Assembly: GCF_000003815.2 (NCBI RefSeq)
Contig: NC_049997.1
Location: 10,223,860 to 10,287,859 of the forward strand
Length of the DNA: 64,000 bases
DNA from: Branchiostoma floridae
Lineage: Eukaryota; Chordata; Leptocardii; Amphioxiformes; Branchiostomatidae
Direction: 5' to 3'
The notes beneath the pieces were generated by a model. It was not told the DNA's origin. It did no database searches and was given only the letters and a program-made list of their open reading frames with translations. Position 1 is the first letter of the stretch, and every line of letters starts with the position of its first letter. A program made the position numbers and the translations under genes. This document shows, in pieces, positions 39,133 to 63,718 of this stretch.

Positions 39133-42100
39133 ATGACCGATCTAACGATGACAACGAAACCCCTGTCTGTCGTGGCGAAGTTGTGTTACGCTTTCGGGGG
39201 CGTTGGCGGTGAGATCCTATGGGTCGTGTTTGGGGCGTACACCAGCATCTTTCTGGTGGATGTGGCGCAGGTAAACTGGTTCAGTATCATCTTCTTGCTA
39301 TCAGTGTTTTCTCTCAAATACGCCATGCTGCATGCGTGCACTTCAAGATTTCTTCGACCAAGGTGTTTTACTTCAGAAGGCTTACATGTATAATGTATAT
39401 TCTTTTCCAGATGCCACCCTTATTTGCCACGTCCATTATTTTCGGCAGTAGGGTAGTGGACATCTTATGCAATGTCGTCATAGGCCCGTTGATTGACAGG
39501 ACGAATACACGATGGGGGAAGATAAAACCATGGTAACGTACATATGAGAATTTACATAGTTTTGCTGCGGTAGAGCGTTATAGCCGTTAAAGATGGGGTC
39601 ACACCTGCGTATATATTTAAGTCCGTATGAGGCGCGCATGGGAGTATTTGCCTCCACCAGGCTCCACAGGTCGTTGTAAGATAATAGAAATTGGACAAAC
39701 GTTAACAGGTAACATGTCAGACGATTTAGCTGGGTGGCTAACTATACTACTCGGTCAGCTAACTCATCTGGCATGTTATGTATCTAAATTTGTCCAATTT
39801 GTACTATGCAGCTTTCTGTATAGTTTTCTGCACACAGTTCTGGAAGTGTCTTTCTTATTTTCCAGGATTGCAATATCAACTCTGTTTATGACTGTAACGA
39901 ACGCGTTGATGTGGTATGTCCCGGATGTTGGGACGGGAGGAAAGCTGGCCTGGTACATCATACTGTACACTGTGATGGTGCTAGGTCGGTCGGTAAGTCA
40001 CTAGCCTCAGACTCCGGCGAGCTTTCTTTTAAAACTATGCACGGATATATCTGATTAAATACATGTGAAACAACAAGAAGGGGCGAGTAGAACAGAAAGA
40101 AACAATATATACAAATATCCTGACCGACCCGGCGGGAATCGAACCCGGGTCCTCAAAACTTAAACCCCCCACTGTTACACTACTCCCCCTTTTGTTTTCA
40201 TGATTCGTCCTCGAATCTCCGAGTTCGATCCCTGTGGGCAGGCACATCTCCGGCCTGTTATCCACCCGAGGGCCACGTCGGGCACCAATGAAACAACAAG
40301 AAGGGGCGAGTAGAACAGAAAGAAACAATATATACAAATATCTTGACCAACCCGGGAATCGAACCCGGGTCCTCAAGATCACAACACCAGCATATATATA
40401 CACACAAAAAAACTGAATAGAAATATTACAAGCACTATGATAACTTATTTACCTCGCTGTAGGTACGTAATGGAAATAATCCATACATTTGGGATCGTCT
40501 TATGAACTACCTGTCTATTTATATGTGTAAATGAATATAGAATACAACACGGTGTATTCCGTATCACCCGAGGTATCAGCCCGACCGCGGGTCGGATCGC
40601 CCGAAGGGTGATCCGACCCGCGGGAGGGCTGGGACCGAGGATGATGCGGAATACACCGTGTTGTATTTTATTTATGTCATACCCACCTAAGAAAACCCCC
40701 ATTTTGATGCGAAATGCGCTAGAAGTTTGGTGCCCTCGAACAAAAAGTGTTGCAACAGTAATCTTCCAACGTCTTAATCAGGTATTCGAACATTCGATGG
40801 CGCCGCACTCGGCCCGCTCGAGACAGTTCGATTTATTCGAATGGAGCCTGTGTGATACGCCTTTCGAACCGGTCTGATATAGAAGTTATGGCCCGGTCCG
40901 GAACACCCGTATCGAATGTTTTCGCGTCACAGGTATGACATAAATATACATATGTGCCACTGATATTGGACGTTTTCTTTCAGGGGTTTTCGATTGCCTA
41001 CACCGCATTTTTGATGTTTCTAAGCGATAACAGCTCCGAGAGAGACTCAGCTATCCTATACAGTAAGTAGTACAGGTATCATGCTAATACAGTAGAAGCC
41101 AGTTAATTGCGCACCGGATTAACGCACACTTCTGTTAACTGCACGGAATCCCCAAATCGCAAAACAGTGCGGTCCAGCTAAATAACTTCGCATTATTGCA
41201 CCAGCCGGATAATTGCACGAAATTTACTGGCAAATAGGCCGTGCGATTAAGCGGCTTCTACTGTATTACAGATAGTAGGGTAGCAAAATGAAATGTAGGG
41301 GGGCACAGTTGGTGATTACTAAGGTAACGTTTGAGCAGGGTAGTTCTTCACAATATAGGGAAAAAATTATTACTCTGTGACGGAGGGTAACCTCTGACGA
41401 CAGAGTATTGTTGTTGTCCGATGTGATGAGTGTTCGCATCTGTATCTCTATGTTCCCTTTGCCGCATTCACATGTAGTCTGGCATGTCGCTTGCACGCGG
41501 TTGCGTGAAGATGCACTTGTTTCGCGGTAGCTGTTTTTATAATCGATGTAACAATTTCAGAAATCACCCCTATACTCCTGGTGTTGTGGAACAGGCCATG
41601 TGATGGGGGGTTGGGGTGGTAATTAGCTTATCTCCATGCAGATATGGGGATATGTGTTCTCTAATTATCTTTCTCGTTCAAAATATCGATTTATAACAAT
41701 AACGCACACCCTCTTCCCTTCTCAGGGTCCATTATCATTATGGGAGGAATGCTAGGGGGAGTGGCAATGCACGGACAGATCCTCGCTTCATTCAGACGCT
41801 CCGATCACGACTCCTGTGACAACATGACTTACAGCGGTAACAGCAGCACCAACAGTTCTGTGGACGGAGTTTCTTTGGAGATGACGGTAAGTCAACGCAC
41901 ACCTGTTCCCTCCTTATTGCACAACATTTGTACATGGTACAATTGTAAGGCAACAGTAACAAGTCAATTGATACAATGATACTCGTCTAAGTTCTATAAC
42001 TACATACATACATACATTCTTTGGAGATAACGGTAAGTCAACGCACACCTGTTCCCTCCTTCAGAAAACTTATTGAACATACTAAAAGAAAAATTACTCA

Positions 42101-45100
42101 TCTGAACTTCCATATGAATCTCTATGAGTCTTTTTCAGCTAGCTGACCAAATTGCTGAGGACACGTGACTTTAAACAACGTGTGACGTCAGTAATGGGTC
42201 AAAGGTTGCTGGAAGTCTATAGCGCTCCACGTCCTGGTTTTTCTATAACTGTAATAGTGTAATTTCTTTGCCAAATCATGATTTTTTTAAACATTTCCTC
42301 AGCGAACCGGTTACATGATCTCTTCAGCAGCTGTGTGTGGTATTCTGCTGTTGTGTTTGTCAGCAATCGTCTTTGGCACGACAGAGAGAAAAGGTACGTA
42401 TACAAAGTAGCCTCCGTTGGAGACTCGAGCGGAGCTGGCATTTTTTTTAGATGGGGGGGGGGGCTGGTTCTCGATTTTAAACGTTGGCTAGGTGCCCTTA
42501 TGCCGGGAAAGGCTCGAAGACGGGGCAAACACCTTTCCACGGCAAACTCCCTTTCCCGGTTTAAAGACACCTAGCCAACGTTGAAAATCGCGAACCAGCG
42601 CCCCCTCCCTTAAGTTAAATGCCCGCCCCGCTCTTCAGTCTTCAACGGAGGCTATACAAAGATGCTTTTACGGGTGAACTCACCAATGCCGCATATTAAT
42701 CAACAAACTACTTTGCTGTGGAAGAGTTAACTAGCTAGATTATCGGGTATCAATTATGATGTCTGCAATAGTTATTGTATCGCTTCTTTTTGGAAAATAA
42801 CCGTGACATTCGTTCATAAGAAACAACGACAAACTCTTTCAATGTACATCCATACTTTGACATGTAGTTGCTACATATATTTTGATCAAGAACATTAAAC
42901 ATTGAGTGAATTGGGTTGTTATGGGTTGCCTAATATCCTAATTAATCAAAAGTAGTCAAATTTCAATTGTTGAATAAATTTCATTGCTTGTTGCCCCCCC
43001 CCCTCCCCCCAAAAAAGGATAATTCCCCTTTTCCAACCAACTTAAGAATTAATATGCCTAGACGTTTTCTCCAACATGTTGTTCTAGATATTTCAGCGAC
43101 ATCCGGAGGAAAACGTGACCAGAACATTATAGAAATAGCTAAACTTTCTTTCCAACACTGAATTAATATAGGGACTTACCCTAAATTTTCGGCCAACTCC
43201 GTCGACCAACTCCGTCCACCGGCCCACACTCAACAGAGACGGGGGGCGGCATAGACTTTCTGATACTTATGACCCCCTCCTGCAAAAGTGGCGTGTTCCT
43301 GACGTCACTGCTGGAGATAGGGTCATTCTGTGAACAAGGTCGACGGAGTTGGCCGAAAATTTAGGGTAAGTCCCTATATTAATTCAGTGTTGGAAAGAAA
43401 GTTTAGCTATTTCTATAATGTATTCTACCAACACAGATGAACTTTCATGTGACCAGAGCATGTTCAAGACGACGAAGATTGTGCTGACATTTCGCCCCAA
43501 CGTCTATTTTCTTCTGGCATATTTCTTTATCCAAATACCTATTGCTGTGAGTATCATATTAGGAATTCAATCAGGTATTTATCAAGTGTTATTGCGCTAG
43601 ATTAAAAAAGTGTGGGGACTAAACTAATGCCATGTTCATTCGGTCATATGGATGACATCCGCATGCATCAATTTTCAATTGTTAAAAAAACGTTTCGACC
43701 ATTCTATAAATCGTACAAAGCAGCTGCAAAATGAGTACAGTCAAATCTGCCCAAGACGACCACATGGGGACCGGCCAAAAGCGGTCGAATTGGCCAGGTG
43801 GTCGGTTAGAGGAGTATCGACTCATAACATACCCAATGCATAGTTTAAATGGTTTCTGTTGTGTTTAATGGCAAATAGCAAGCACATGCACGTGCATCTG
43901 CCGTCATCTTTATTTTGAACATAACATCATAATGGCAGTCAAAATCCGGCGCAAACTGGCCGAATTCGGCACAAACTCGTGCTAGTTATCATTGAAAATC
44001 TATGACACCTCAAGATTTGAAAATGACGCGGTCGTTATGGGCAGGGATTTGGTCCCAATTTTTGGCGGTCTTGTTGGCCAGGTGGACGTTGTAAAGAGGT
44101 GGCTTAGTGCTTACGTCAGTGGGGAAAATTTTCGGGACCGAGAAAAAGCGGTCGTAATGGCCAGGGGTCGCTAAGAAGAGGTGGTCGCTTGGGCAGGTTT
44201 GACTATAGATATATGACGTAAATTGCCAAAAATGTAGAAAAACGGACGCTGATATCGTAGAATACCAAAGTTAATTCCGAAGTCAAAAAGAGAAAACGAG
44301 AAAGAACAAAATGAAGAATCCACTGTTCAGTATACCATACTCTGTGTGTTATTAAGTCATTTGTTCAACTGACCACCTAGTTTCATAGTGAAGGCAACTT
44401 TTCCCACTTTTTGTCTTCTCACGCTCGCATCAATTTTGGAGTTTCCAGAGGACGTCAGCCATATAGCCGAATCAATAAATCTCCAACCCCCTAAAGTTGT
44501 CTGATATGAATCGAACTATACCAAGAAGTGGGTAATATACTCGGTGGGACCGCGTGGTACAGTGGTATTGTGTCCGCCTTGTGACCGAGAGGTTGCGGGA
44601 TCGAATCCGCCTGCCGTGCTGCCGATCTTGTGCCCTTGGGAAAGGCACTTTACACGACTTTCCTTACTCTACCCGAGCCGTCCCTCGGATAGGACGTTAA
44701 ATGGAGGTCCCGTGTCTGGGGAGAGCCATACCCCGGGCACGTTAAAGAACCCGCCACATGTGCGATGGTGCGGTGTGAGTGGTTCAAAACCAACAGTACC
44801 TTGGCCGCACCTGGGGCAATTACTGTCGTATTGAGGTCACCTGAGTGGCGCCGAATGGCAGCCAGAATCACCAGCGAATGGCAGCTCACTCCAGACCCTT
44901 GCGATTTAGCCCCGCCTATTGTAAGCTCCTCGCAATTCATCCCCTGGCTGCAAAAAGTGAGTAGTCGGCCCACCCAATAATGAATGAATGAAGACCTTTA
45001 TTGTACAGTTTTGCCCAACCGAGCTAAGTACAGGTCACAACAAGTCAAGATATATACATATAAAAGTATCACAAATCTAGTCTAACACAAAAGTTCGGCT

Positions 45101-48100
45101 TCTTCTCGCTTCTTGGTAATGGTGAAAATGTAGGACTGTATGGGTTTCGCTATGGTCGGTTTGTCAAAACGCATGAGAAATATAAACTTGTCAGTGCTAC
45201 TCATGTGTCTAAAATGAGGGAATCTACTTTCTATATAACTAAATAGAGTATTTCTATCATTGTATATAACTAAATAGAGTATTTCTATCATTGACATACA
45301 TATCGCAATCAACAGTGAAGTGCACTTCATCTTCTACCATGTTTGAGGTACAAAATTGGCAGACTCTTTGTTCTAGAGGAGTGCGGTTGTGCCTTCCTGA
45401 TTCAATTCGCAGTCGGTGGCAACTGATTCTTAGGCCCCCTTTCCACTTGACGGCGCTCTCACGGCGCTCTCGCTGCGATGGAAAATTGGCCAGAGCGCGG
45501 TGAGAGCGCCGCGACGCCGGAAAAAGCTGCTCTAGTGGAATCTCTCCGGCGACCCCAGCGCGCTCTCACCGCGACGAAAAACTCAAATGTCAGCATCTTT
45601 TTATGAGCTAGCAAAGTTTCGAAAGATTACTCAACGAATTTCAGAGATAAAGAACGAATCTTTTGACGTTTAGTGTATTTTGGTATCTTTGAAGTCATCC
45701 ATTTACGTGCTACATAACATTCAAAGTATAAAATCAAGGCTGTAATCAAATCCAATTTTGGTCACTGTACAGTCACTCAGACTGAAATATACACGTTTGT
45801 CTTGCTGTTTTTTTCTTAAATCTGTCATGTAGCTTGTTCAGCATAAATTTATCATGCCACGTTATTAGTGTAAATCATACAACACTGAAACACTTCAATT
45901 TATTGAAAATGGGACTTAAACGTACTAAATGTGCAGATGAAGAACAAGAAAACATAATGTCATCATGTTGAAATTCAAAAATATGTTGAGAAATGATAAA
46001 CCATTGTTTTTTAAACCTTGCTTATTACAACTCAGTTTGTTGAATTGTTCATCACCGGTACATTTTGGACATTTCTCCGCTTTCTGTCTATGTCAAATAT
46101 ACTTCTTCACAAACTGCGCAGTTGAGAGCGCAGAGAGAGCGCGGTGAGAGCGCCGTCCTAGCTAAATTGGTATCATAAATCACTGTTGAGACCAATTGCG
46201 CTCACCGCGCTCGCTGTGCGCTCTCTTGGCGCTCACGGCGCTCGCTGCGCGCGCTCTTGGCGCTCTCTCTGCGCTCATAGTTGGATCGCCGTCCACGGCG
46301 CTCTCACGGCGACTGTTTTGAGCAGGTTCAAAACAGTCGCGGTGGTGATGGCGACCATGGCGACCATGGCGCTCCCACCGCGCTCTCTTCGCGCTCTCAT
46401 GGCGACCTTGGCGATCCCACCGCGCTCTCACCGCGCTCTTCCAAATTTGAGGTCGCAGAGAGAGCGCCGCGAGAGCGCCGTCCTAGTGGAAAGGGGGTAT
46501 TAGTTTAGCAATGGTAGTTCTGTGCCGAATGTTTGTAATTTGCAAATACTGCTCTTCATTGTATGTGGATTTCAGTAGTCTGTACGTTCGGAGTTTGTTT
46601 TTTGCACCTAAACCTTTGTTATCATTATGAATGTTGGTTAGAAAATTCTGGAAATAAATATCCTTCAGTCGTTGGTGGATAGCAGAAATTAGGTGGGATA
46701 CGTTTGGATCTGTTGACTCATGGGCTTGCCAAACAAAAGGGTAACCACACTCCTCCAGAGTTTTGCGAACACCAGATGCCCAACATTTAGTACCTGATGA
46801 ATCTAGATTAAGCTGACATAAGAGAGCGTCTGCCTGCAGGCTCTCGGCTGGCACATTCTGTTGAATTCTAATGAAATATTTGATGGCGTTCAGAGAGGCT
46901 TCCAGTTGGATAGGGTACCTCCCTAAGTCAGCGCGTACAGCAAGGAATAAACAATACTCTGTGACGTAATTATGGTTTTCACAATGGGTTGTTTTGCGTC
47001 TTTATCGAATGTGACATGGTGATGATTATGGTTTGACTATAGGATTTATTACAGATTGAGTTTGTTATTCACCCATTCATTAAACGTAGCGTGTTATTGT
47101 GTGTGTATTGCTGTGCGGTGTCCGTGTTGAACAGTAGTGCTAGGCTGTCTGTGATGATTTGATTTATTATTTCACATACAAAGTTTTACAGTTTCGCAAA
47201 CACATGCACTGAATTGCACTGGAAAATACAATCAGGTTGACAGCCTTACTACATTACAACATTACATCGTTTATCTACTTACTGATATTTAAAATCAACT
47301 ATGCTTCAAGATATTGTCTATATCAAACTTTGTTTAGCATAATTCTTCTTTTACAGTAGCATATTTACACCAGTTGTTGTGAGCATAACGTTAGAATATT
47401 ACTTGATTTAAAAATTGACTATACAAGTTTCATTTGGTTTTATATTAAAGGAGCATTTAAAAACGGACACGACAACATATTCAGTAAAGACTAGAGGTAA
47501 CCAATGAGGTTATAGGGTCTCTCACACTAGTTATAAAGTTTGAACAACTTCGGTGATGATAAGATGACTGGTAAGATGATTTTGTCTCACATTTTGGCTT
47601 GACATTTTTATTTTCAGATAGGACATGGAGGCATTGCCCTCTACGTACAGTACAGTCTGGATCTGGAAGACCAGATAGAGAACGTCCTCTTATCTTTCAT
47701 GGTAAGAGACCAAACGTCCTGATGTTTTTTCCAAACTAAACATGTTGATATCATGAAAGTTCATCTGTGTTGGTAGAATACATTATGGAAATTGCTAAAC
47801 TTTCTTTCCAACACGAATTAATATAGGGACTTACCCTAAATTTTCGGTCAACTCGACCTTGTTGACAGAATGAAGTTGACCGAAAATTAAGGGTTAGTCC
47901 CTATATTAATTCGTGTTGGAAAGAAAGTTTAGCAATTTCCATAATACAAACATGTTGATGTTTACACATCCTTGCTGTGAAAGACTTCACATCTCCGTTT
48001 GTTTCAGCAGCCTTGTTTCTAAGCGAAACGGTTCTAAAAGTAGTTGAAAGTTCATCACCGTTGGTAGCATCCATTCTGTACTAGGATCGAACACAAAGTT

Positions 48101-51100
48101 GTAATTGGACTTGCCAAAATGAACAAAAAATTGCAGAAGCCTATGACGTCCCCCGTCACTATACAGTTGCTAGAGATACGAATGGTACAGATTTTCTAGA
48201 AATAAATTGGAGTTTGCATTGCAATATTGATAATAATGAAAGTTTATTTGAAACTTTTTGCCCGAGGGCTAATTGCAACATGGAACATACAGAATATATA
48301 GTATACATACATACATACATAAAATAAAAGACTTTGGTAACGTTATAGATAACAATGGTGACAAGTGGAAACAGGTGACTATTCTAGCAATAATATATTG
48401 ATAATACTGATTCTTTCCAATAGGTGGCATCAGTGTTAGCCATGCCTGTTATTGGTTGGGTCGTGTCCAAACTTGGCAGGAAGACTTCCTACATATGCCT
48501 TATGCTGGTAAGGCCCTGAAACTCAACAATATGTTTTTGTTAACATGTGTACTCAGCCGCCATAGAGTCCATTCCAAGACACCATGCGGATGTTTGTGGC
48601 CATTGTTTAGAATTGATTTTAAAGTTTTGTAATTATATGTCTAGGACATTTGATACTTCAGAAATATTTGTAACACTGTTTCAACTTTATAAACATTTCC
48701 CTGGTCCTGTAAAACTTTGGAAATATTCATCGTGTGGAATTGGATACTTCTAATGGTTTCTAAATAATGATAACAGTATTCTACCATTATTTACCATTTT
48801 CTACCATTTTTTGTAAATGGTTCAGTGGGCTGGGAAGATAGCAATTCACACATTCTTGCAAAGTATGGTTGGGTGCCATGCAACAATGGCCCACTACAAA
48901 GGATCCACCAGTGCCCAGCAGTGAAATCTAAAAATATACAGATACAACAATAGGGCTTACTTTTATGGGGGCAATAAACTAATTTAACCATTTGGCCAGG
49001 TTTACCATTTTTTGTAAATATTTGTAAATGTGAAATAATCACACAGAGGTTTCACAATAATTCTAAATAAAGATATTTTTGTACAGTTACTTTCAAAATG
49101 TTTCTAAAATATTCAAAGGAATTCAAATATATGAGTACTTTCTCAGTCAATTTTTTAAACATAATTTAATTATTATGGCTCAGATATTCTTTTATTCAAA
49201 ATAATTCAGACTAATTATAAATATCGCCTAAAAACCCTCATGGTGTCTTGGAATGGACTCTATGCTGTTTGGTTAAATCTGAAAAGTAAAACCTGTAAAT
49301 TGATGAGCTTTCACCAGTTTACACGTGATTGTAGTCATATATGCGAAGTGAAAATCTACCACGTAGCTTACAGGTTCAACCGCACAACATGGCGGATAAT
49401 GTTACGTCTTTGTCACGTGGGTGCAAACAGCCGATGCCAGCGTAACGTGGAAGGGTCCACTCTTGCACAGGGGATTCAAATTAAGATTTTTGAGTGAGGT
49501 AATAATGTTGCGATAGTCCAAGTATGGCTACATGAAGTAGAAGTAGCATTTGGATGGCCCATTTCTTCAAAAGGGTGATGTATTATAGTCCATTTTTTTG
49601 CATGGGGAGGGACTGAAATATGCTAGATTTGCTCGCAAATGTTGCCTTTCTAGTTGTTCTTATTTTCCTTGTAGGCTGCAGTCCCGATGTACATAGGATT
49701 TCAGTTTATACCAAAGGGAAGCCTGACTGTTTTTGCTGTTAGCATTGGTATAGGCGTCACTGCGCTTGCACAAATGTTTATACCATGGTGAGTTGACGCT
49801 GCGAGATTTACTAGCATGCAAAAGACGAAAAGTTCAAGAACTTCCTGTGTTCGCCGCATGGGCTACTCGTATGCATGGGATGATTTTTTACTTGATCGAT
49901 AAAGAATATTAGGCGTACAACATTTGAGTGAGTCAATAATCTTAAACAAAATGCATAGCTTTAAAACGTCTAACGTACCCTCATTTGTTGACACTATTCA
50001 AATTTTTAAACACAACATCTGCACACACAGGTTGATGGTCAGTGACATTACAGAAGACTGCTACCTACAGACCGGTGAAAGACTGGACACTCCCTTCGTC
50101 GCCATCCTCTTGTCCTGTGGCAGTCTCGCCATCACCGTGGGACTGATCATGGCCACCATCGCGCTGGAGTGAGTACCGCTGACATGGTTTTCAGTTTTGC
50201 ACATTCAATTCCCTACGCAGAGACATCCAACGGCGCCAGCAAACCGCCTCTTGTCTGTACTCTGCTATCTCAACCGTCATCATTAGTTCCTATGGGCGTC
50301 GCCACAGACCAGCTATCAGCCAATCAGAGAAAGGCCTTTCAGTTTTCAAAAGGGATCTGGCAAATAAAAGAGTAAGCTCATTAATATTTATAAGCAGGGC
50401 GGTCAGGAACTGATGGTGACGGTTGAGATAGCAATGTACAGACAAGAGGTGGTTTGCTGGCGCCGTTGGATGTCTCTGCGTAGGAGAATGTGTACATTTA
50501 GCATTATCATGGGTATAGCAACAGCGTGGTCACGTGTCCAGGGCTTCGAGGCCAGTCGTTCTGAGGAAGACAGGACTACAGGGTCACGTGTCATCGGCTA
50601 TGAGGTCACGTGCACGGGGATCAGTCATTCTGAAGAAGGAGTTCGGTCTTAAATTCGATGACGTCAATGTCTTCATGCTATTGTCCATAGAATCAGAACC
50701 ATTTGTACAGAACGTTGCCTTCCGACCCATTCTGCTCTTATCATGACGTGACAGTAATTAGCAACCCTCAAAATGGCCAAAAGAAGTGCGGGGTTTTTCT
50801 AGTGCCTAGGGAAGCAAGCTGTGGTTTCAGTAGAAAGGTATATTTTACAGGAAGGGGTTGCTTGGCACTAGCCCTTGCCATTTAACGTGCTCAAGGCACC
50901 TCCTAGAACACGGACCTATGTCCCTTCCGAAAGACTTGTGCAGCCCCAATCCAGGGGCCTCCGGTTGCCAGTTGCATCTAATCGGAACCAGGAACTCAAT
51001 TTGCATTTGTGAGACTCCTGAGGTTGACACAGAGTTTTATTGCATTGTCGTTGTGTTACCGCTTCGCAGAATCGGAGGCTACAAACTAGGATCTTGTACT

Positions 51101-51858
51101 CAGCCTGACACGGTGGGAAGCGCCTTGCGGATTCTGCTATCAGCGTTTACGTCAGTCCTGACCTTCATCGGTGTGGTGTTTGCATGGAGATATCCCATCA
51201 CTGAGGACAGGCGGAAAGAAATCGCCGAGGCCATCAATAAACGGTTAGAATTTCTCTATTAAAAAATGCGCTGCTAAAGCTTCAACTGACTCAATTTCTA
51301 CTTGATGATCACTTGATTTTGCATTCGGAGGGCCCTAGTTCCGAACGCGCATGCGCATGGAGATGCATTCTATGAAATACAACAAAGTTGAAGAACCTTT
51401 GAACAACGTCTGCGTTTGAACTACATGTATATGCATACCTTGGGCAGGCGAAAATGTGGAAGGATATCAATATACGATTAGGATGAGCTACGCCTACAAG
51501 ATCCTTCAAATACATTTTTTTGTTTTGTACAATGCTAATAGACCCATCGTGGATATAACAATCCACTGTCACTCAGATTCAAAAAGGCCATGGGACCTGA
51601 ACCTGTCGTATGGCGCTAGCCTGTATTCTGCTCAGAAGACCATACCTTAACTTTTGCCTTTCAATTTCCGACAGAAAACTTTCAAGGGACGCCCAACTTG
51701 ACGAGATCCAGCGAAACGGAAGCCTGTCCAACATGAACGGAAAAGCTCTTCTGCCTGAGGAGTCTTCGAAGCCAGAAGGATTACAGGAAGAAAACAAACT
51801 TCTGTCGTCAGAACTGGACTTGTCTGTACTTTTAGATTGTAGAGAATCAGTGGTATGA
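39133..51858 (+). CDS. MFSD2-like transporter, copy A (534 aa, lysophosphatidylcholine symporter family)
   Basis: MFSD2A is a plasma-membrane sodium-dependent lysophospholipid importer of the MelB-like major facilitator clan. Coding exons: 39133-39270, 39411-39532, 39866-39992, 40984-41062, 41726-41886, 42303-42393, 43437-43546, 47618-47701, 48424-48507, 49675-49787, 50031-50168, 51070-51243, 51675-51858; phases agree, 1,605 nt. The start is MTDLTMTTKPLSVVAKLCYA, just after an acceptor at 39,113. Family marks: KLCYAFGG...LVDVAQ (TM1), RWGKIKPW (loop 2-3), SSERDSA, a loop with Cys and sequons (DSCDNMTYSGNSSTNSS), GWVVSKLGRK, DITEDCYLQTGERLD, GGYKLGSCTQP, RYPITEDRRKEI. The cytosolic tail is acidic. 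Against human MFSD2A (from memory) the TM2 site reads D-x3-N, not D-x3-D, and the TM11 lysine is Ser. Exon 7 is altered by an insertion. The real ligand is unknown. Confidence 0.85.
40066..40400 (-). mobile_element. tRNA-derived SINE-like repeat, duplicated ends
   Basis: GAAACAACAAGAAGGGGCGA, then GGGAATCGAACCCGGGTCCT, occurs at 40,066-40,160 and again at 40,286-40,380. On the minus strand the second piece is a perfect pol III B box (GGTTCGATTCCC). A third B-box-like GAGTTCGATCCC lies between them on the + strand. No complete cloverleaf is visible, so I call a SINE-type composite and not a tRNA gene. Confidence 0.55.
40541..40667. repeat. 127-bp nested palindrome
   Basis: The outer arms AATACAACACGGTGTATTCC and GGAATACACCGTGTTGTATT are perfect complements at 40,541 and 40,648. 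The centre (40,586-40,624) is a second GC-rich palindrome, CGCGGGTCGGATC...GATCCGACCCGCG. It can fold into one long hairpin in the third intron of copy A. Confidence 0.85.
41090..41263. mobile_element. pogo/Tigger-like MITE (174 bp)
   Basis: Ends CAGTAGAAGCC and GGCTTCTACTG are flanked by TA on both sides (41,088-41,089 and 41,264-41,265). A CAGT terminus with TA duplication is typical of pogo-like Tc1/mariner elements. It lies 27 bp after the exon ending at 41,062. Confidence 0.8.
42408..42654. mobile_element. MITE with TAGCCTCC ends
   Basis: Ends TAGCCTCCGTTG and CAACGGAGGCTA are flanked by TACAAAG at 42,401-42,407 and 42,655-42,661, or by 9-bp TATACAAAG if TA belongs to the duplication. 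Inner arms match as well: GTTGGCTAGGTGCC(C) against CACCTAGCCAAC. It begins 14 bp after a splice donor of copy A. Confidence 0.75.
43088..43127 (+). pseudogene. Stranded 5' part of MFSD2-like copy A exon 7
   Basis: The ancestral acceptor TTGTTCTAG (to 43,087) and the codons for ISATSGGKRDQN are still present and match the 5' part of exon 7 in copy B (59,256 onward). The reading frame now runs into the inserted element and stops (…LSFQH, then TGA at 43,159-43,161). Use of this acceptor would truncate the protein in mid-transporter. Confidence 0.8.
43128..43448. mobile_element. Foldback element inserted in a coding exon, 12-13 bp direct repeats
   Basis: Two 81-bp arms (43,126-43,206 and 43,339-43,419) are exact reverse complements, reading ATTATAGAAATAGCTAAAC... 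inward. The right arm is followed by a one-sided 29-bp tail (GTATTCTACCAACACAG, then ATGAACTTTCAT). The insert is flanked by GTGACCAGAACAT (43,115) and GTGACCAGAGCAT (43,449). Copy B has the sequence once (GTGGCCAGAACAT), that is, an empty site. No coding capacity. Confidence 0.85.
43437..43546 (+). CDS. MFSD2-like copy A exon 7 with acceptor supplied by the insertion
   Basis: CCAACACAG at 43,428-43,436, inside the element tail, gives an acceptor. From there the frame joins the previous exon exactly (phase 1): D-ELSCDQSMFKTTKIVLTF, against D-ISATSGGKRGQNMFKTAK in copy B. The exon becomes 110 nt, not 125, so five residues are lost from the cytosolic loop between TM6 and TM7, which probably tolerates change. 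The splice is predicted, not observed. Confidence 0.65.
43738..44204. mobile_element. pogo/Tigger-like element (467 bp, non-autonomous)
   Basis: Ends CAGTCAAATCTGCCCAAG and CTTGGGCAGGTTTGACT, with TA at both outer borders. Inner sequence repeats GGTCG(A/T)ATTGGCCAGG-type motifs. Typical of internally deleted pogo-like elements. Confidence 0.7.
44541..44980 (+). mobile_element. tRNA-derived SINE
   Basis: The head has an A box (TGGTACAGTGG, 44,555-44,565) and a B box (GGATCGAATCC, 44,598-44,608) at tRNA spacing. The body contains GTGCCCTTGGGAAAGGCACT then TTACACGACTTTCCTT, shared with the SINE at 53,719. The 3' part (TACCCCGGGCACGTTAAAG onward) abuts the LINE fragment at 44,988. Its 3' border is not precise. 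Confidence 0.7.
44988..46945 (-). mobile_element. LINE reverse-transcriptase C-terminal fragment, split by another transposon
   Basis: The minus strand reads LGRYPIQLEASLNAIKYF, LRTYRLLKSTYNEEQYL and IRHRTTIAKL down to 46,500, and continues at 45,433 with RISCHRLRIESGRHNRTPLE, RVCQFC and DKFIFLMRFDKP. This is the conserved tail of animal LINE ORF2 proteins. The 3' end is ...AATAAAGGTCTTCATTCATT. The 1,066-bp element at 45,434-46,499 separates L and RIS. Only the tail is left, so it is not autonomous. Confidence 0.85.
45434..46499. mobile_element. 1,066-bp inverted-repeat element rich in GGCGCTCTC, TTAG target duplication
   Basis: Ends GCCCCCTTTCCACTTGACGG and, on the other strand, TACCCCCTTTCCACTAGGACGG are followed inward by dense GGCGCTCTC / GAGAGCGCC copies (45,450-45,560 and 46,125-46,485). 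TTAG flanks both sides (45,430-45,433; 46,500-46,503), and removal restores the LINE frame. No transposase is seen. The superfamily is not recognised. Confidence 0.85.
46960..47617 (+). other. Intron 7 remainder of MFSD2-like copy A
   Basis: AT-rich sequence with a TTTATTATTTCACATACAAA stretch that may be another retroelement tail. No gene or clear repeat. Confidence 0.4.
47750..47947. mobile_element. Second foldback element with the same one-sided tail
   Basis: Arms at 47,782-47,852 and 47,875-47,945 (ATTATGGAAATTGCTAAAC...) match with about 2 differences in 71. The left arm is preceded by GAAAGTTCATCTGTGTTGG and TAGAATAC, the same tail as in the element at 43,128 (opposite orientation). 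Direct repeats AAACATGTTGAT flank at 47,738-47,749 and 47,948-47,959. The matching intron of copy B has a single ACAATGTTGATGTTA. Confidence 0.8.
48239..48330 (-). mobile_element. Retroelement 3' tail fragment
   Basis: AAAGTTTATTTGAAACTTTT then GCCCGAGGGCTAATTGCAAC, followed by a CATA repeat. Same family as 54,309 and 28,056. Confidence 0.5.
48561..49264. mobile_element. 704-bp inverted-repeat element
   Basis: The first 26 bases, CATAGAGTCCATTCCAAGAC plus ACCATG, are exactly the reverse complement of the last 26 (CATGGT, then GTCTTGGAATGGACTCTATG). The interior is AT-rich with a TTTACCATTTTTTGTAAAT motif repeated, and no transposase. It lies in intron 9 of copy A, and copy B lacks it. Confidence 0.8.
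50200..50505. repeat. Foldback repeat with about 80-bp arms in copy A intron 11
   Basis: CTACGCAGAGACATCCAACG onward (50,213-50,292) is matched by its reverse complement at 50,408-50,486 (…CGTTGGATGTCTCTGCGTAG), with a few substitutions. The arms hold GGCGCCAGCAAACC and CCTCTTGTCTGTAC. The loop is about 110 nt. No coding. Confidence 0.85.
50518..50650 (+). repeat. Two degenerate units of the CACGTG repeat
   Basis: GGTCACGTGTCCAGG...CCAGTCGTTCTGAGGAAGAC and GGTCACGTGCACGGGGATCA...CATTCTGAAGAAGG are low-copy relatives of the 68-bp unit amplified at 62,269-63,055 in the same intron of copy B. Confidence 0.75.
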
Positions 51859-56218: not shown

Positions 56219-59200
56219 ATGGCCGAGGTAGCCAAGACAATGACAACGAAGCCCCTGTCTGTCGTGGCGAAGTTGTGTTACGCTTTCGGTGGTGTTGGCA
56301 ATGAGATCATATTTATCGTATTCGGGGCGTACACCAGCATCTTTCTGGTGGATGTGGCACAGGTACTAAAGCTAATTCATTATTATATGTGATGTGTTTT
56401 CTGTCCAGTATACCGCGCTACATGCGTGTACTTCAAGATTTCGTCGTTTATTTTCATGTCTTACTTAGGTCCCATTTCTTAAAATTCTTAAAAGCATTTT
56501 ACTGAAAGCTTGTGTGTGTATTGGTTACTCTTTTCCAGTTGCCACCCTTATTTGCAACGTCCATTATTTTCGGCAGTAGGGTAGTGGACGTCTTGTGTAA
56601 TGTCTTCATGGGCCCGTTGATTGACAGGACGAACACAAGATGGGGGAAGATAAAACCATGGTAACGTACAAATAAGATTTTACATTTATCTTCCGACATA
56701 GACGTCACATCTATGTAGTTTACAGTCTACACGCAAGTGCAGTGTTCGACACAGCAGTATCTTTTTTAAACAGTACATTCATCGCAAATTAGCAGAACAG
56801 AATAAATTATACGACCATTTACAATTATGTCAGTAGACTTCATATGTAGTCAAACACTGGTACATGGTTGTTTCTAAAAAGAACGGTGAACATAGCAAAT
56901 GTGCCCCTTTTTGTAAGTAATTTCCGGTAGGACGAATATAGTTTTCTCCATAGTTCTGAAACTTCAAAGCACCTACCTTATTTTCCAGGATCGTAACATC
57001 AGCTCTGGTTATGACTGTAACGAACGCGTTGATCTGGTATGTCCCGGATGTTGGGACGGGCGGAAAGTTGGCCTGGTACATCATACTGTACATTGTGATG
57101 AAGCTAGCCTGGTCGGTAAGTCACTAGCCTTATGATCCTCATCCTCAAATACAATTGAAAAAACAGCTTTCGTCACACCCACCACCACACCAAGTATGAA
57201 ACCAATTCACCCAGCCGTTCTTGCGTTCTTGTTGACACACAGACACACACACGGCAGCCGTGACAAACGCTAGCGAAAATATGACCTCCATGACACTTCA
57301 GGGAGGTAAAAATTCAATCTCTACAACTGTATAATAAAAAACGGAGATTTACTTCCGGTCGTTTCGAGTGACATCCTTCACTCTTCTTAAGCGTCATCAG
57401 AATACACTGGCAAGACAATTCAATCTACTGAAGAAGAGTGATGGATGTCACTCGAAACGTCCGGAGGTAGATCTCCGTTTTTTTAATCTAGTTGTACAGA
57501 TTGAATTGAATATTGTTTACCTTGATGTCTAGCCTCCATAAATGGAAGCCTCTTGATCATTTGCTGACTCTGGTGAGCTTTTATTTAAACAGAAAACGGA
57601 TTTCTTATCACATAGACATGTACTAGACTCTAGCAGCTACGTATACCTTGTTCTGATGGTCCCCAAACGAGAGATCAGTTCATCATTAGAACCAACGTAT
57701 ATAGTCTGTATATGTAAAAGTATATAAACCGTGACTTTAAAAAGAATGTCAGGGATCGTAATACCCCTTTCACATTTGGTGAAAATCAATCGGACGACGA
57801 TTCTGCGGCAATCGCCCGAGTCTCGCTTATACACAAATGTAATAATAACTTTATTGTAAAAAAATTGTACAAGGTGCGAAGTATGGCTTATATGTGACAG
57901 GACGGTATTTAGGTCAAAAATACGCGCAACCCTCTGTCGATCTTAGATATGGCTGATCTTCCTTCGATATGCCCGAAGATCGTGGATAATGTGACAGGGG
58001 TATAAACGCTTGTCAATGACATGAGCTGTTTTCTTTCAGGGTTTTGTAATTTCCTACCGCACGTTCGTGATGTTTCTGAGCGATGACAGCTCCGAGAGAG
58101 ACTCGGCCATCCAGTATAGTAAGTACTATCACTTAAGCTAGAGGCACAACCCGCCGTACGTGCAATTTGTCCGCACGTTTTTTTGGGAGGCCACGTCCGC
58201 CACGTATTTCTGAAAACGGTCAGGCTGTACAGGACAGGCGCGTCGCCCGTACTGGCACGTCGCCCGTAATCCGCAGCCCAATGGCACACAAAGTTTTGCC
58301 TGCACGCAAAGTTCAACGTCGTGTCTGCGTGCTCCAAATCCGTCGGATTCCCTACGAGTCCGTACGGAGGCGGTACTTGCCACTTACGTATTTGCACGTA
58401 CGGTGGGTTTAGCTTTACCCTTAGCTTTACGTATTCATAGATGCACGAATGAAGTCATGACGTTTTATAAAAACAGGGTATGTGGAGACAAACGGTGGTT
58501 TCAAACTGGTATATTTTTACTATATTACAATTTGAAACCATCGATCGTCGATTTGATGTCCCTATGTAACATGTTTTCAGATAAAGGTGAATTAATGTTA
58601 CCCGTTCTTTCTCAGGGGCCATCTTCACAATTGGAGGGACTGTTGTAGGAATGGTAATGCACGGACAGATCCTTGCATCTTTCAGACGCTCCGAGCACGA
58701 CTCCTGTGACAACATGACTTACAGCGGTAACAACAGCACCAACAGTTCTGTGGATGGGGTTTCTTTAGAGATGACGGTAAGTCAATGTACACCTGTAGCC
58801 TCCTTCAGAAAACTTATCGAACATTTAAGCTGTTCTTAGCTAGACCATGCGACGGTTAACATGATGTATTTGCCGGCAAATGTTGCATTTCTAGTTTTAT
58901 TGTTGCGTTTCCTCAGCGAATCGGTTACATGGTCTCCTCAGCAGCTGTGTGTGGTCTTCTGCTGTTGAGTTTGTCAGCGATCGTCTTTGGAACGACAGAG
59001 AGAAAAGGTACGAAGGTTTAGGGATGAACCGTTACTTTGAAAGATAGTTGGTACACATATTTTGACCAACAACATTAAACGTTTAGTGTAATCATGTATG
59101 AGATTGTTTCTTTGATGCCACTGTCAAAAGTAATAAAATCTAACATTTTTGATACATTTTACTGCTTGTTGTTATCCCCTAAAATTGTCCCAATTTCCTG

Positions 59201-62200
59201 GATCCCTACTAGCTTCAGGATAAACCTTGACGTTTCCTTCAACTTGTTGTTCTAGATATTTCAGCGACATCCGGAGGAAAACGTGGCCAGAACATGTTCA
59301 AGACGGCGAAGAGTGTGCTGACATTTCGCCCCAATGTCTACTTTCTTCTGGCATATTTCTTTATCCAAGTACCTATTTCTGTGAGTATCATATTAGAAAT
59401 TCAAACAGACTCGTATCAATCATTATTGCACATTTTCTGACTGATTTTCATATCATCTACTTGATGTGGATCTGTAAGATCGTTTTACAGACCCCAATCC
59501 TGAGTCGTCGCCCAAATGTTTTCTGTCACTGATAGACATGATTGTGGTTCACTCTCATTACATTTGGCCGAGACCATCGACATGATGTCTTTGTCAATGA
59601 GAAATTTTGGTACTACTAGTATGTAACGCTACTTCGCCTTTATCCGCGGGGTAACCTATATCCGTTGTTTTTCAAAACAGGGTATTGGGGCACACCAAGC
59701 CGACGGGTGGTAGTTTTTGACTGCAAAGTACTAAAAATATTGCAATTTGAAACCAATGTCCGTCGACGTGATATCCCCAAATACCCTGTTTTGATAGAAA
59801 CGGATATAGGTTACCCAATGGATAAAGGTGAGCTAGCGTTACAGGATGTTCCCATCTAAAGACGCGTGGAATAGAACCAGTCAGTTTTGCCATGAGGAAG
59901 GTTACAGACCGTTACGGAACCGCCGATCATGATTTCATGTCTAGGTCGTGAATAAAGAATCTTATCATCCCTATACCTGTCACTGAAAGGTTGGTTCACA
60001 CGGCTTAACATTTTTATTTGCAGATAGGACATGGTGCGATCGCCCTCTACGCACAGTATAGTCTGGACCTGGAAGACCAGATAGAGAACATCCTCTTAGC
60101 TTTCATGGTAAGAAACAAAACTTCCATAGTGTTCTTCCTCTGTGTACAATGTTGATGTTACACCTTACTTGTTTCTATTACAATTTGAATTGTCAAAAGT
60201 TCATCAGTTTAGATAACATCCATTCTGTCCAAGATCAAACTGTTATGTCCAACACAAAGAGGAAACTCATCATCATCATCATCATCATCATCCCATAGCT
60301 GATTAATCAGCCGTAGGGGCAGCACAACATGTTATGTTGTATCAATACGGCAATAGGCATTTTGAAACTGTTGAAAAGTTGAAACTGGGCGCGCCAAAAT
60401 GGACAAAACTTTCAGAAAGCCTACGGCGTCGCCCGTCTCTACGCCATTTCTCGAGAAGGAAATTGTGATAGGAGCTTGCTACAAAGCCTTTTCATAATAT
60501 TTTTCTGTTTGAAGACAATCTGTATCTGTATCTATATAGCCGGTATAACCGCCGTTCGGCGTAACACACCAGCTTTGCAGGCACGCGGCGCGGCAGTAGC
60601 TGGTTATATTGCACCAAACAACCTGTCACACCTAACTTTAGCACATCTATCTGCAAGCGTTCTTTAAAGCTATCCAGAGAAGATGCCCCTACTGTGCTTG
60701 GTGACAACGAATTCCACTCTACGATAGTTCTGGGAAAATACGAATTTTTGAACACATCAATCCTAGGTTGGTAACTCTGGTACTTGAAGTCATGGCTGTT
60801 TCTTGTTCTTTTTTGAGCTGGTATGATATAATTATCAGTCGGCACGTCTACCAGCTTATTGAACTCTGCGCTTTGATAACATTGATGTTACGTTCTTTCC
60901 AATAGGTGGCATCAGTGTTAGCCATGCCTGTTATTGGTTGGGTCGTGTCCAAACTTGGCAGGAAGACTTCCTACATTTGCTTTATGCTGGTAAGGCCCTG
61001 AAACTCTATCTATACTACACATGTATGTTTAACTGTATGTTTATGCATGTGACGTTATATAACGTCAAAACAGAAATCTACCTGGTAGGTTAGAGGTTTA
61101 ATCATACAACATGGCGGACAGTGTTTACGTCATTGTCACAAGCAGCCAATACCAGTGTAACGGAGAAGGGTCCACTTTTGCACATGGAGGGAAATTAAGA
61201 AAATTCTATTTTGGAGTGAGAGAATGTTGCGATAGTCGAAGCATGGGTATATGTAGTAGAAGTAGGTTTGAGATGGTTGATTTCGTGGAAAGAGTGATGG
61301 ATAATAGTCCGTTTTTTGCATGGGAAGGGAGTGGCGTATGCTGACTTTGCTCGCAAATGTTGTCTCTCTACTTCTTATTTTCTTTGTAGGCTGCAATCCC
61401 GATGTACATAGGATTTCAGTTTGTACCAAAGGGGAGCTTGGCTGTTTTTGCTGTTGCCATCGGTATAGGCATCACTGTGCTTGCACAAGCATTCGTACCA
61501 TGGTGAGTTGATGTAGTTTTATACGAAGTAAGAAAGAGCAAAAGTACAAAAGCTGCATGTATGCTCGCTGCATGCGCTGTTTGTGTTGGCCTCCTTCGCG
61601 AATATAAATTTATGTCCCATATGTATTCCTCAATTAAACAACTTGCGCTAATGCCCACTAAAAGTAGCCTGGGTACCATCCGGAAAGCAGTTCGCTCCGG
61701 CGTTCATTATATACTATATACAGTCGCTTCTAGCTCTGACATTCATTATACACTATATACAGTCGCTTCTCTGTGTTTCCAGAAGCGAACATAGGAGCGA
61801 ACTACTATCCGGATGGTACCCAGGCTACACTAAAAGGCCTCGAAGGAGGCAATCAGGTAATGCATAGCTTTAGAGTGTCTAACATACCCTCCGTTGTTCA
61901 ACAATGATCACGTTGACACCACAAAACTTTTTTAAGCAAGCGCAAAATATGTTTGCATACACACAGGTTGATGATTACTGACATTACAGAGGACTGCTGC
62001 CTACAGACCGGTGAAAGACTGGACACTCCCTTCGTCGCCATCTTCCTGTCCTGTAACAGTCTCGCCATCACCGTGGGACTGATCATGGCAACCATTGTCC
62101 TGGAGTGAGTACCGCTGAAACAGTTTTCAGTTTTAGACCTTTGTTTCATTTTCTATTTTATTCACAAGATTCTTATTCAGAGGATAAGACAGGAAGCAAG

Positions 62201-63382
62201 CAAGCATTGCTTATCTAGGTCTGTCCTCTTACACAAAAACGAATTTTTAGACCTTAACGTGATCACTGGTCACGTGTCCATAGCTACGGGGGCCAGTCTT
62301 TTGAGGAAGACGGGACTACAGGGTCAGCTGTCCCAGTCACGTGTCCCGTAGCTACGGGACCAGTTTTTCTGAGGAAGACGGGACTACAGGGTCAGCTGTC
62401 CCGGTCACGTGTCCCGTAGCTACGGGACCAGTTTTTCTGAGGAAGACGGGACTACAGGGTCAGCTGTCCCGGTCACGTGTCCCGTAGCTACGGGACCAGT
62501 TTTTCTGAGGAAGACGGGCCTACAGGGTCAGCTGTCCCAGTCACGTGTCCCGTAGCTACGGGACCAGTTTTTCTGAGGAAGACGGGACTACAGGGTCAGC
62601 TGTCCCGGTCACGTGTCCCGTAGCTACGGGACCAGTTTTTCTGAGGAAGACGGGACTACAGGGTCAGCTGTCCCCGTCACGTGTCCCGTAGCTACGGGAC
62701 CAGTTTTTCTGAGGAAGACGGGACTACAGGGTCAGCTGTCCCCGTCACGTGTCCCGTAGCTACGGGACCAGTTTTTCTGAGGAAGACGGGACTACAGGGT
62801 CACCTGTCCCAGTCACGTGTCCCGTAGCTACGGGACCAGTTTTTCTGAGGAAGACGGGACTACAGGGTCAGCTGTCCCGGTCACGTGTCCCGTAGCTACG
62901 GGACCAGTTTTTCTGAGGAAGACGGGACTACAGGGTCAGCTGTCCCCGTCACGTGTCCCGTAGCTACGGGGCCAGTCTTTTGAGGAAGACGGGACTACAG
63001 GGTCATGTGTCACGTGTCCGGTGCTAAGGGGCCAGTCTTCTTGAGGAAGACAGGAGTCCAAAATTCAATGGCGACATTGTCTACATTCCATTATCAACAC
63101 AATCACAACTAATCGTACAGAAAGTTGCCTTCCGACCCATTCAGGTACAGACACAGACACAGACTTTTGTTTATCATCTGTTGCATTTCCTGGGTGTTCC
63201 CGCTGCAGAATCGGAGGCTACAAACTAGGATCTTGTGTTCAGCCTGACACGGTGGGAAGCGCCTTGAGGATTCTGGCGTCAACGTTTACGTCAGTCCTGA
63301 CCTTCATCGGTGTGGTGTTTGCATGGAGATATCCAATCACAGATGCTAGGCAGAAAGAAATTGCCAAGGCCACCAATAAACG
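56219..63382 (+). CDS. MFSD2-like transporter, copy B (last exon outside window)
   Basis: Tandem paralogue of copy A in the same orientation. Coding exons: 56219-56362, 56539-56660, 56989-57115, 58040-58118, 58616-58776, 58917-59007, 59256-59380, 60024-60107, 60906-60989, 61390-61502, 61967-62104, 63209-63382; 480 codons plus 2 nt. The start MAEVAKTMTTKPLSVVAKLC follows an acceptor at 56,199. Exon lengths equal those of copy A except exon 1 (+6) and exon 7 (125 against 110 nt, the uninterrupted form). It keeps SSERDSA, DSCDNMTYSGNNSTNSS, GWVVSKLGRK, LQTGERLD and GGYKLGSCVQP, and has the same Asn in TM2 (RVVDVLCN) and Ser in TM11. The last exon, like copy A 51,675-51,858, should lie after 64,000; use of the donor at 63,383 is inferred from copy A. 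Confidence 0.85.
57313..57506. mobile_element. Foldback element with CGTTTCGAGTGACATCC arms
   Basis: TTCAATCT...ACGGAGATTTACTTCCGG then CGTTTCGAGTGACATCC on the left and GGATGTCACTCGAAACG then TCCGGAGGTAGATCTCCGT...AGATTGAA on the right. Centre about 57,400. A diverged half copy is at 9,410. Confidence 0.8.
58475..58605. mobile_element. Dispersed TIR element, copy 2 (partial)
   Basis: AACAGGGTATGTGGAGACAA, TTACAATTTGAAACCA, TCGTCGATTTGATGTCCC and GATAAAGGTGAATTA follow the order of the element at 59,626. It ends just before the acceptor of copy B exon 5. Confidence 0.6.
59626..59842. mobile_element. Dispersed TIR element, copy 3 (complete)
   Basis: GTAACGCTACTTCGCCTTTA, GGTAACCTATATCCGTT on the left face AACGGATATAGGTTACCC and GGTGAGCTAGCGTTAC on the right, about 45-bp arms. 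The interior carries CCGACGGGTGGTAGT and TCCGTCGACGTGATATCC. Same family as 7,803 and 58,475. Confidence 0.85.
60266..60293. repeat. (ATC)n microsatellite
   Basis: About eight CAT/ATC repeats (CATCATCATCATCATCATCA) in copy B intron 8. Confidence 0.95.
60500..60880 (-). mobile_element. LINE reverse-transcriptase C-terminal fragment, second family
   Basis: The minus strand reads RTRNSHDFKYQSYQPRIDVF, KNSYFPRTIVEWNSLSPSTV and ASSLDSFKERL, the highly typical end of animal CR1/L2-type LINE polymerases (SFFPRTI.EWN.LP...SLE.FK). The 3' end has the hexamer-like CTGTATCTGTATCTATATAG. Only the last 100 or so residues are present. Confidence 0.85.
61665..61827. mobile_element. MITE with 9-bp target duplication
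   Basis: TAGCCTGGGTACCATCCGG and CCGGATGGTACCCAGGCTA form perfect ends. CACTAAAAG flanks exactly at 61,656-61,664 and 61,828-61,836. The inside has two copies of ACTATATACAGTCGCTTCT. The 9-bp duplication suggests a Mutator-like origin. Confidence 0.9.
62269..63055 (+). repeat. 68-bp minisatellite, about 12 units, in copy B intron 11
   Basis: GTCACGTGTCCCGTAGCTAC starts units at 62,336, 62,404, 62,472, 62,540, 62,608, 62,676, 62,744, 62,812, 62,880 and 62,948 (exact 68-bp steps), with diverged outer units at 62,269 and 63,009. Each holds CACGTG, the palindrome CCCGTAGCTACGGG and TTTTCTGAGGAAGACGGG. Inner units are nearly identical, so amplification is recent. Confidence 0.95.
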
Positions 63383-63437
63383 GTTAGAATTTCTGCTTCT
63401 ATGGTTTATCTATGTGCTACCTCACCTGATGATCACT

Positions 63438-63718
63438 TGATTCTGCAGTTGGAGTACTTCTGAACGCGCATGCGCAATGAGATGCAAACTAGGAAATACA
63501 ACAAAAGTGAAGACATTTTGAACAAAGCGCGTCTGAACTCCCACTTTGGTGTAAATATGATTGGGCAGGCTAAAGGGAAGGATTGGAATGAGCTCCACCC
63601 TCCAATACCGTGCTAAACGCTAGTTTCCAAGCAGACCCTACGGTGCCTTTAGAAATAGTATCAAAGCTGGCCCGTTTGACTCCCTTAGCCGGCTATCTCC
63701 CTTTGGCCGGCTATACTC
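63438..63718. repeat. Sequence before the gap, with MITE left end
   Basis: 63,438-63,618 is repeated after the gap. From 63,624, TCCAAGCAGACCCTACGGTG, AGTATCAAAGCTGGC and GGCCGGCTATACTC match the left half of the MITE at 55,472. The right half is missing in the gap. Confidence 0.8.

Follow-up and report, generated by a model that had tools for sequence, protein, structure and literature searches.

Exonic transposons have long been known to be removable by splicing. Rushforth and Anderson in 1996, Fridell et al. in 1990 and Giroux et al. in 1994 are said to have described such removal, by cryptic splicing, for Tc1 (C. elegans), 412 (Drosophila vermilion) and Ds (maize). The locus described here, in a 64,000-nt stretch of the Branchiostoma floridae genome that we refer to throughout as the window, resembles these cases in that an element lies in an exon from which splicing could remove it. 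It differs in that the event is predicted from sequence, and in that the predicted splice also drops the front of the exon via the donor of the old intron. Among the small elements that might be responsible, MITEs are expected to carry inverted repeats at both true ends and a target duplication of fixed, family-typical length; SINE-like retroposons have variable duplications of 7-20 bp, an RNA-gene-derived head or polymerase III promoter, and a LINE-like tail.

Two further kinds of element have been linked to introns. Introners, in the excerpted text of PMC9860276, are described as 5 to more than 2,000 similar copies per genome acting as introns; in some of them the element itself brings the 3' splice site while the target duplication provides the donor. 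In some Introner families this duplication spans 3-9 bp, as against 12-13 bp in the family described below, and the present element also departs from Introners in its weak donor, in having its other copy antisense within an intron, and in being represented by two copies within the window. For amphioxus, the excerpted text of PMC5802833 mentions that a gained intron of PRHOXNB contains a MITE, LanceletTn-2. Like the element described here, LanceletTn-2 is a miniature element tied to intron change; the present element differs in having no inverted repeat at the 3' end proper.

A tandem pair of MFSD2-like transporter genes

The window contains two tandem paralogues, copies A and B, both on the forward strand and each with 12 modelled exons (Table 1). 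The predicted product of copy A has 479 aa when exon 7 is started at 43437, and that of copy B has 499 aa. In each, the Pfam domain MFS_2 (PF13347) spans the full length, with scores of 227 bits for copy A and 250 bits for copy B, and among eight PDB matches the best four are MFSD2A and the remaining four are melibiose carriers. A full-length MFS_2 domain combined with MFSD2A as the closest of the solved structures places both proteins in MFSD2; judged by these matches, the best solved relatives of A and B are the MFSD2A lysolipid transporters. Pfam searches with five ORFs elsewhere in the window gave no match.

The two genes also differ in several other respects. At the C-termini (51262 and 63440), copy A ends ...RLEFLY and copy B runs 13 residues longer. 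A 45-base stretch comprising the end of exon 5 and its GTAAGT donor (41871-41915) recurs at 97.8% identity 146 bp downstream, within intron 5 of copy A (42017-42061), and copy B has a single version at the matching place; splicing from the second donor would lengthen the exon by 146 nt and put the reading out of frame. A tandem array of ~68-bp units occupies 62267-63055 in intron 11 of copy B; copy A has a related stretch in its own intron 11, starting at 50527.

Table 1. Features of the copy A and copy B loci and of the inserted elements, in window coordinates
Feature	Position	Strand	Basis
Copy A, 12-exon MFSD2-like transporter gene (MFS_2, PF13347)	39133..51262	+	gene model, Pfam, structure matches
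Copy B, 12-exon paralogue; exon 7 uninterrupted at 59256-59380	56219..63440	+	
Copy A exon 7 as read from the ancestral acceptor: 459 nt with the insert, TGA at 43159-43161	43088..43546	+	
Exon 7 of copy A if the element acceptor is used, 110 nt, in phase	43437..43546	+	
Inserted element, 321 bp, exon 7 of copy A (5' arm, loop, 3' arm, tail)	43128..43448	+	empty site in B, flanking repeats
Target-site duplication, left copy GTGACCAGAACAT	43115..43127	+	single copy in B
Target-site duplication, right copy GTGACCAGAGCAT	43449..43461	+	single copy in B
5' hairpin arm, 84 nt, 100% complementary; outer 4 nt within the target-site duplication	43124..43207	+	
3' hairpin arm; carries consensus donor AGG/GTAAGT after 43365	43338..43421	+	
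Tail outside the hairpin (27 nt) with the CCAACACAG acceptor	43422..43448	+	
Second element copy, 198 bp, intron 8 of copy A, antisense to the gene	47750..47947	-	

A hairpin element with a conserved tail splits exon 7 of copy A

The first-pass annotation had described a 321-bp insertion splitting exon 7 of copy A, with copy B as the uninterrupted control, and both points were borne out by comparison of the two genes. The insert is flanked by a 13-bp target-site duplication, identical at 12/13 positions, and copy B presents the empty site, with the duplicated target present once, as GTGGCCAGAACAT. Copies A and B agree at 97.5% of 40 bases across 43088-43127 and at 91.8% of 98 bases from 43449, and the two local matches overlap by 13 bases of B. 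The bounds of the insertion were taken from these local matches; a MAFFT alignment of A and B smeared the front of B's exon across the element tail and was therefore set aside. With the empty site in copy B serving as control, the insertion is beyond chance.

The same annotation had treated the insert as a hairpin element, a description that holds for the greater part of it. The inverted arms are 84 nt long, fully complementary and separated by 130 nt; folding of 43040-43546 as RNA gave -240.9 kcal/mol (z -21.7), with 0/100 shuffles as stable, and the hairpin is beyond chance. The hairpin is not the whole element, however, as a 27-nt tail extends beyond the stem and is conserved in a second copy, in which 32/32 bases of 43417-43448 are identical. 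The second copy has a loop of 20 nt, most of the loop of the exon 7 copy being missing, and is flanked by a perfect 12-bp duplication, AAACATGTTGAT, at 47738-47749 and 47948-47959; together with its duplications (47738-47959) it lies 48 bp after exon 8 of copy A. At E 1e-3, the exon 7 and intron 8 copies are the only matches to the element in the window. These two elements are members of a mobile family and, since the second copy carries the same tail and its own duplication, the 3' end of the family is the tail rather than the hairpin. Two other palindromic stretches were noted in copy A, a foldback element in intron 6 (42408-42654, about 75% self-complementary) and a further palindromic element in intron 3 (40537-40671, 83% self-complementary).

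Comparison of the arms between the two copies (regions 43124-43421 and 47782-47945), counted without gaps at the alignment ends, revealed four differences in the 3' arms and six in the 5' arms. All four 3'-arm changes are mirrored in the 5' arm (4/6 of the differences there), with P about 1.5e-5 if the places are independent, and the remaining two are confined to the 5' arm of the second copy. On this comparison, the mirrored differences are a sign of concerted arm evolution; the hairpin has probably been kept alike or remade in each lineage, which makes arm identity a poor clock.

As regards the class of the element, neither copy has inverted repeats at both true ends: with the ends set by the duplications, the arms extend to, or almost to, the 5' end and stop 27 nt (exon 7 copy) or 32 nt (second copy) before the 3' end. 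The duplications of the two copies found, 13 and 12 bp, vary in length within the 7-20 bp typical of SINE-like retroposons, and the single conserved 3' tail adds to this likeness, whereas the lack of an A-rich or simple-repeat tail, the lack of an Rfam match (0 in the window at the gathering score) and the long perfect hairpin set the element apart from them. On the basis of these two copies, the duplications and the one-sided tail do no more than hint at retroposition. Searches with the element in a phage collection, and with a 24-base tail word in viral contigs, gave no match in sets presumed to hold few or no animal genomes, and no earlier report of the exon 7 element was among the matches listed in a partial, non-exhaustive literature search with terms that left out the gene name.

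Translation of the alternative splice products

Eight splice combinations were translated, with 43088, 43097, 43388 and 43437 each tried alone as the acceptor of exon 7. Entry at 43437 is the only one of these four to give a full ORF, of 479 aa, and only two of the eight combinations keep the frame, namely 43437 alone and 43088-43114 joined to 43437. Entry at 43088 meets the TGA within the element at codon 264, and 43097, a second ancestral in-frame acceptor, leads to the same stop. The TGA is also retained when entry at 43088 is combined with removal of a 71-nt mini-intron after 43365, and 43109, an exonic AG before the element (0.43 and -0.11 with the gene-pair and general matrices described below), lies upstream of it. 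Two other candidates were rejected: an acceptor at 43388 in the arm (1.34 and 0.75 with the same matrices) is out of frame, with a stop at codon 257, and skipping of exon 7 causes a frameshift with a stop at codon 318. Translation thus upheld the earlier observations that the old acceptor now leads to a stop and that the frame resumes in phase from CCAACACAG in the element tail.

The resumed protein would read KD-ELSCDQ-SMF in copy A against KD-ISATSGGKRGQ-NMF in copy B, and would be five residues shorter. The replacement of ISATSGGKRGQ by ELSCDQ, as first reported, is accurate relative to copy B, but the sequence ancestral to copy A itself would have read ISATSGGKRDQ. The replaced segment lies between the hydrophobic stretches 215-233 and 262-286 of copy A, at a place where MFSD2A falls short of copy B by 2 residues in zebrafish and by 1 in chicken. 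This position is compatible with the proposed loss from a cytosolic loop, which on MFSD2A topology would be the one between spans 6 and 7.

The tail acceptor is weak and within chance expectation

The tail acceptor was scored with two crude matrices, one built from the gene pair (20 sites from 10 homologous pairs when applied to the new site) and one from approximate general animal frequencies. With the gene-pair matrix it scores -0.32, against 1.57 for 43088 and 0.32 for 43097; 2/22 acceptors scored leave-one-out fall below it, and of the 7654 AGs on the two strands of the window, 17.2% reach its score. The general matrix gives 2.98, against 4.54 and 5.02 for the same two ancestral sites, with 0/21 other modelled acceptors lower and 17.1% of AGs matching its score. 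A similarly weak acceptor, CACACACAG, precedes exon 11 of copy A and falls below the tail acceptor with the gene-pair matrix and slightly above it with the general one.

An equally good in-frame open acceptor was present in 723/4000 random 321-bp pieces of the window (sampled from all of it, coding and repeat stretches included) placed at the insertion site, and in 277/2000 shuffled elements, while any in-frame open AG was found in 1175/2000 random pieces. The in-frame acceptor is not beyond chance, about 18% being expected. Of the 30 nt preceding the exon that it would open (43407-43436), 15 lie inside the perfect 84-bp stem, which should hinder recognition of the branch point and pyrimidine tract. 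With a matrix that pools all 22 modelled donors, the donor after 43365 in the 3' arm scores 11.0, whereas exon 7's own donor reaches 3.8 (leave-one-out). Because this strong donor lies within the element, the tail acceptor may be used in transcripts that retain the stop. Exon definition, on the other hand, might favour the new acceptor, which is 110 nt from the exon 7 donor as against 459.

Copy A was probably functional until recently

Several features suggest that copy A is not a long-decayed gene. Its other exons are intact in the model, with no further lesion, and it scores slightly above copy B against the four solved MFSD2A sequences (e.g. 249 vs 231 bits for 8d2s). Over 479 codons, the replaced ones included, dN/dS between A and B is 0.094/0.232 (NG86) or 0.103/0.184 (YN00). 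At 53 columns where A differs from B and zebrafish and chicken MFSD2A agree, the shared residue is found in A at 10, in B at 5 and in neither at 38. The Pfam score, which ranks A below B, is a point in favour of a pseudogene; an old pseudogene is nevertheless argued against by the absence of other lesions, dN/dS and the 10 vs 5 polarisation. From the intact frame elsewhere, the MFSD2A match scores and the shared residues, we infer that copy A probably still functioned until a recent time, if not longer; this evidence speaks to function until lately and not to survival of the insertion.

The intact frame was also considered as proof of rescue, and rejected. Assuming an indel share of 12% and a splice weight, the probability of no lesion since the insertion is 0.000 with the age taken from the 13-bp duplication, 0.016 with the arm upper bound and 0.306 with duplication and arms together. 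The age from the duplication alone would make an untouched frame very unlikely by chance (P 0.000 to three decimals), but the swing across ages shows that the insertion is too uncertainly dated for the intact frame of copy A to prove rescue.

Disruption, rescue and competing readings

The reading we favour, with moderate confidence, is that the insertion is young and chiefly disruptive to copy A, and that its cryptic in-frame acceptor may rescue some transcripts. A non-autonomous hairpin element (so termed for its small size and lack of an ORF of note) would have entered exon 7, duplicating 13 bp of target, at a date considered young in view of the identical arms. With the ancestral acceptors intact, the transcript would run into the stop inside the element, as translation shows, and such transcripts would presumably be degraded, or the protein cut at about its middle. 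The weak tail acceptor, being in the right phase, would where used restore a 479-aa protein with a loop five residues shorter. Overall we expect function to be mostly lost, any rescued isoform being minor at best. That the acceptor is in frame is most likely a lucky accident rather than an evolved repair device.

The probabilities we assign to the competing readings overlap, as two of them, segregation and the mini-intron, are compatible with this best explanation. It is possible, though we advance it only tentatively, that the reference carries a segregating null or near-null allele, or that the A locus is mis-assembled, so that nothing is fixed about the gene. The identical arms suggest youth, and the amphioxus heterozygosity of 3.2-4.2% given in the excerpted text of PMC12500494 makes a segregating insertion plausible; an artefact is made less likely by the clean duplication and by the second element copy, which has a duplication of its own, and segregation is compatible with the best explanation. 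The first-pass annotation had instead proposed exon repair by the insert, that is, use of the tail acceptor in most transcripts and a full transporter with a shorter loop made by copy A. The in-phase acceptor behind this proposal stands, together with an open frame, a 479-aa product, a gene model free of other lesions, the variable loop length of MFSD2A and a 110-nt exon near the 125 nt of copy B. Repair as the main outcome is nonetheless rather unlikely, given a weak site with half its upstream signal in the stem, ancestral acceptors that are intact and come first, the 18% chance expectation and an insertion possibly too young for a constraint test.

Two readings invoke new introns. In one, 43088 is used together with the donor after 43365, removing the 71-nt GTAAGT...CCAACACAG as a mini-intron inside the element while the stop stays; the strength of that donor relative to exon 7's own and the presence of the donor/acceptor pair in both element copies speak for it, but the donor sits inside the 84-bp stem, and we consider this unlikely. 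In the other, an Introner-like intron runs from a donor AAC/GTGACC after 43114, supplied by the duplicated target, to the acceptor at 43437, so that the element would be spliced out as an additional intron and the protein would be longer by some residues, with KHELSCDQ in place of KRDQ. It would keep the frame (488 aa) and match the pairing of an element 3' site with a duplication 5' site described for Introners in the excerpt of PMC9860276. Its donor is weak, however (-0.4; 36% of + strand GTs in the window score as well), the duplication of the second copy does not start with GT in element orientation, which leaves no family rule, and only two copies are known, within the window; we give this reading very little credence. 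A broader conjecture, which we regard as very doubtful, is a hairpin-retroposon family in which a 3' splice site is a constant feature of the conserved tail and GTAAGT a feature of the arm. In such a family, exonic insertions in the sense direction would often be survived, and conversion or refolding would keep the two arms of each copy alike.

Implications for exonic insertions

Our random-insert analysis offers a useful caution, in that an in-frame acceptor readily arises by chance, in 18% of random inserts by the score applied here. Should 42393 be joined to 43437 in transcripts, the locus would constitute a clean natural experiment, with an apparently young insertion and an empty sister copy 16 kb away. 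The change, 6 residues replacing 11 within a loop of the transporter, would be a countable one, and the locus would put to the test whether an insertion into an exon can be tolerated from the moment it arrives.
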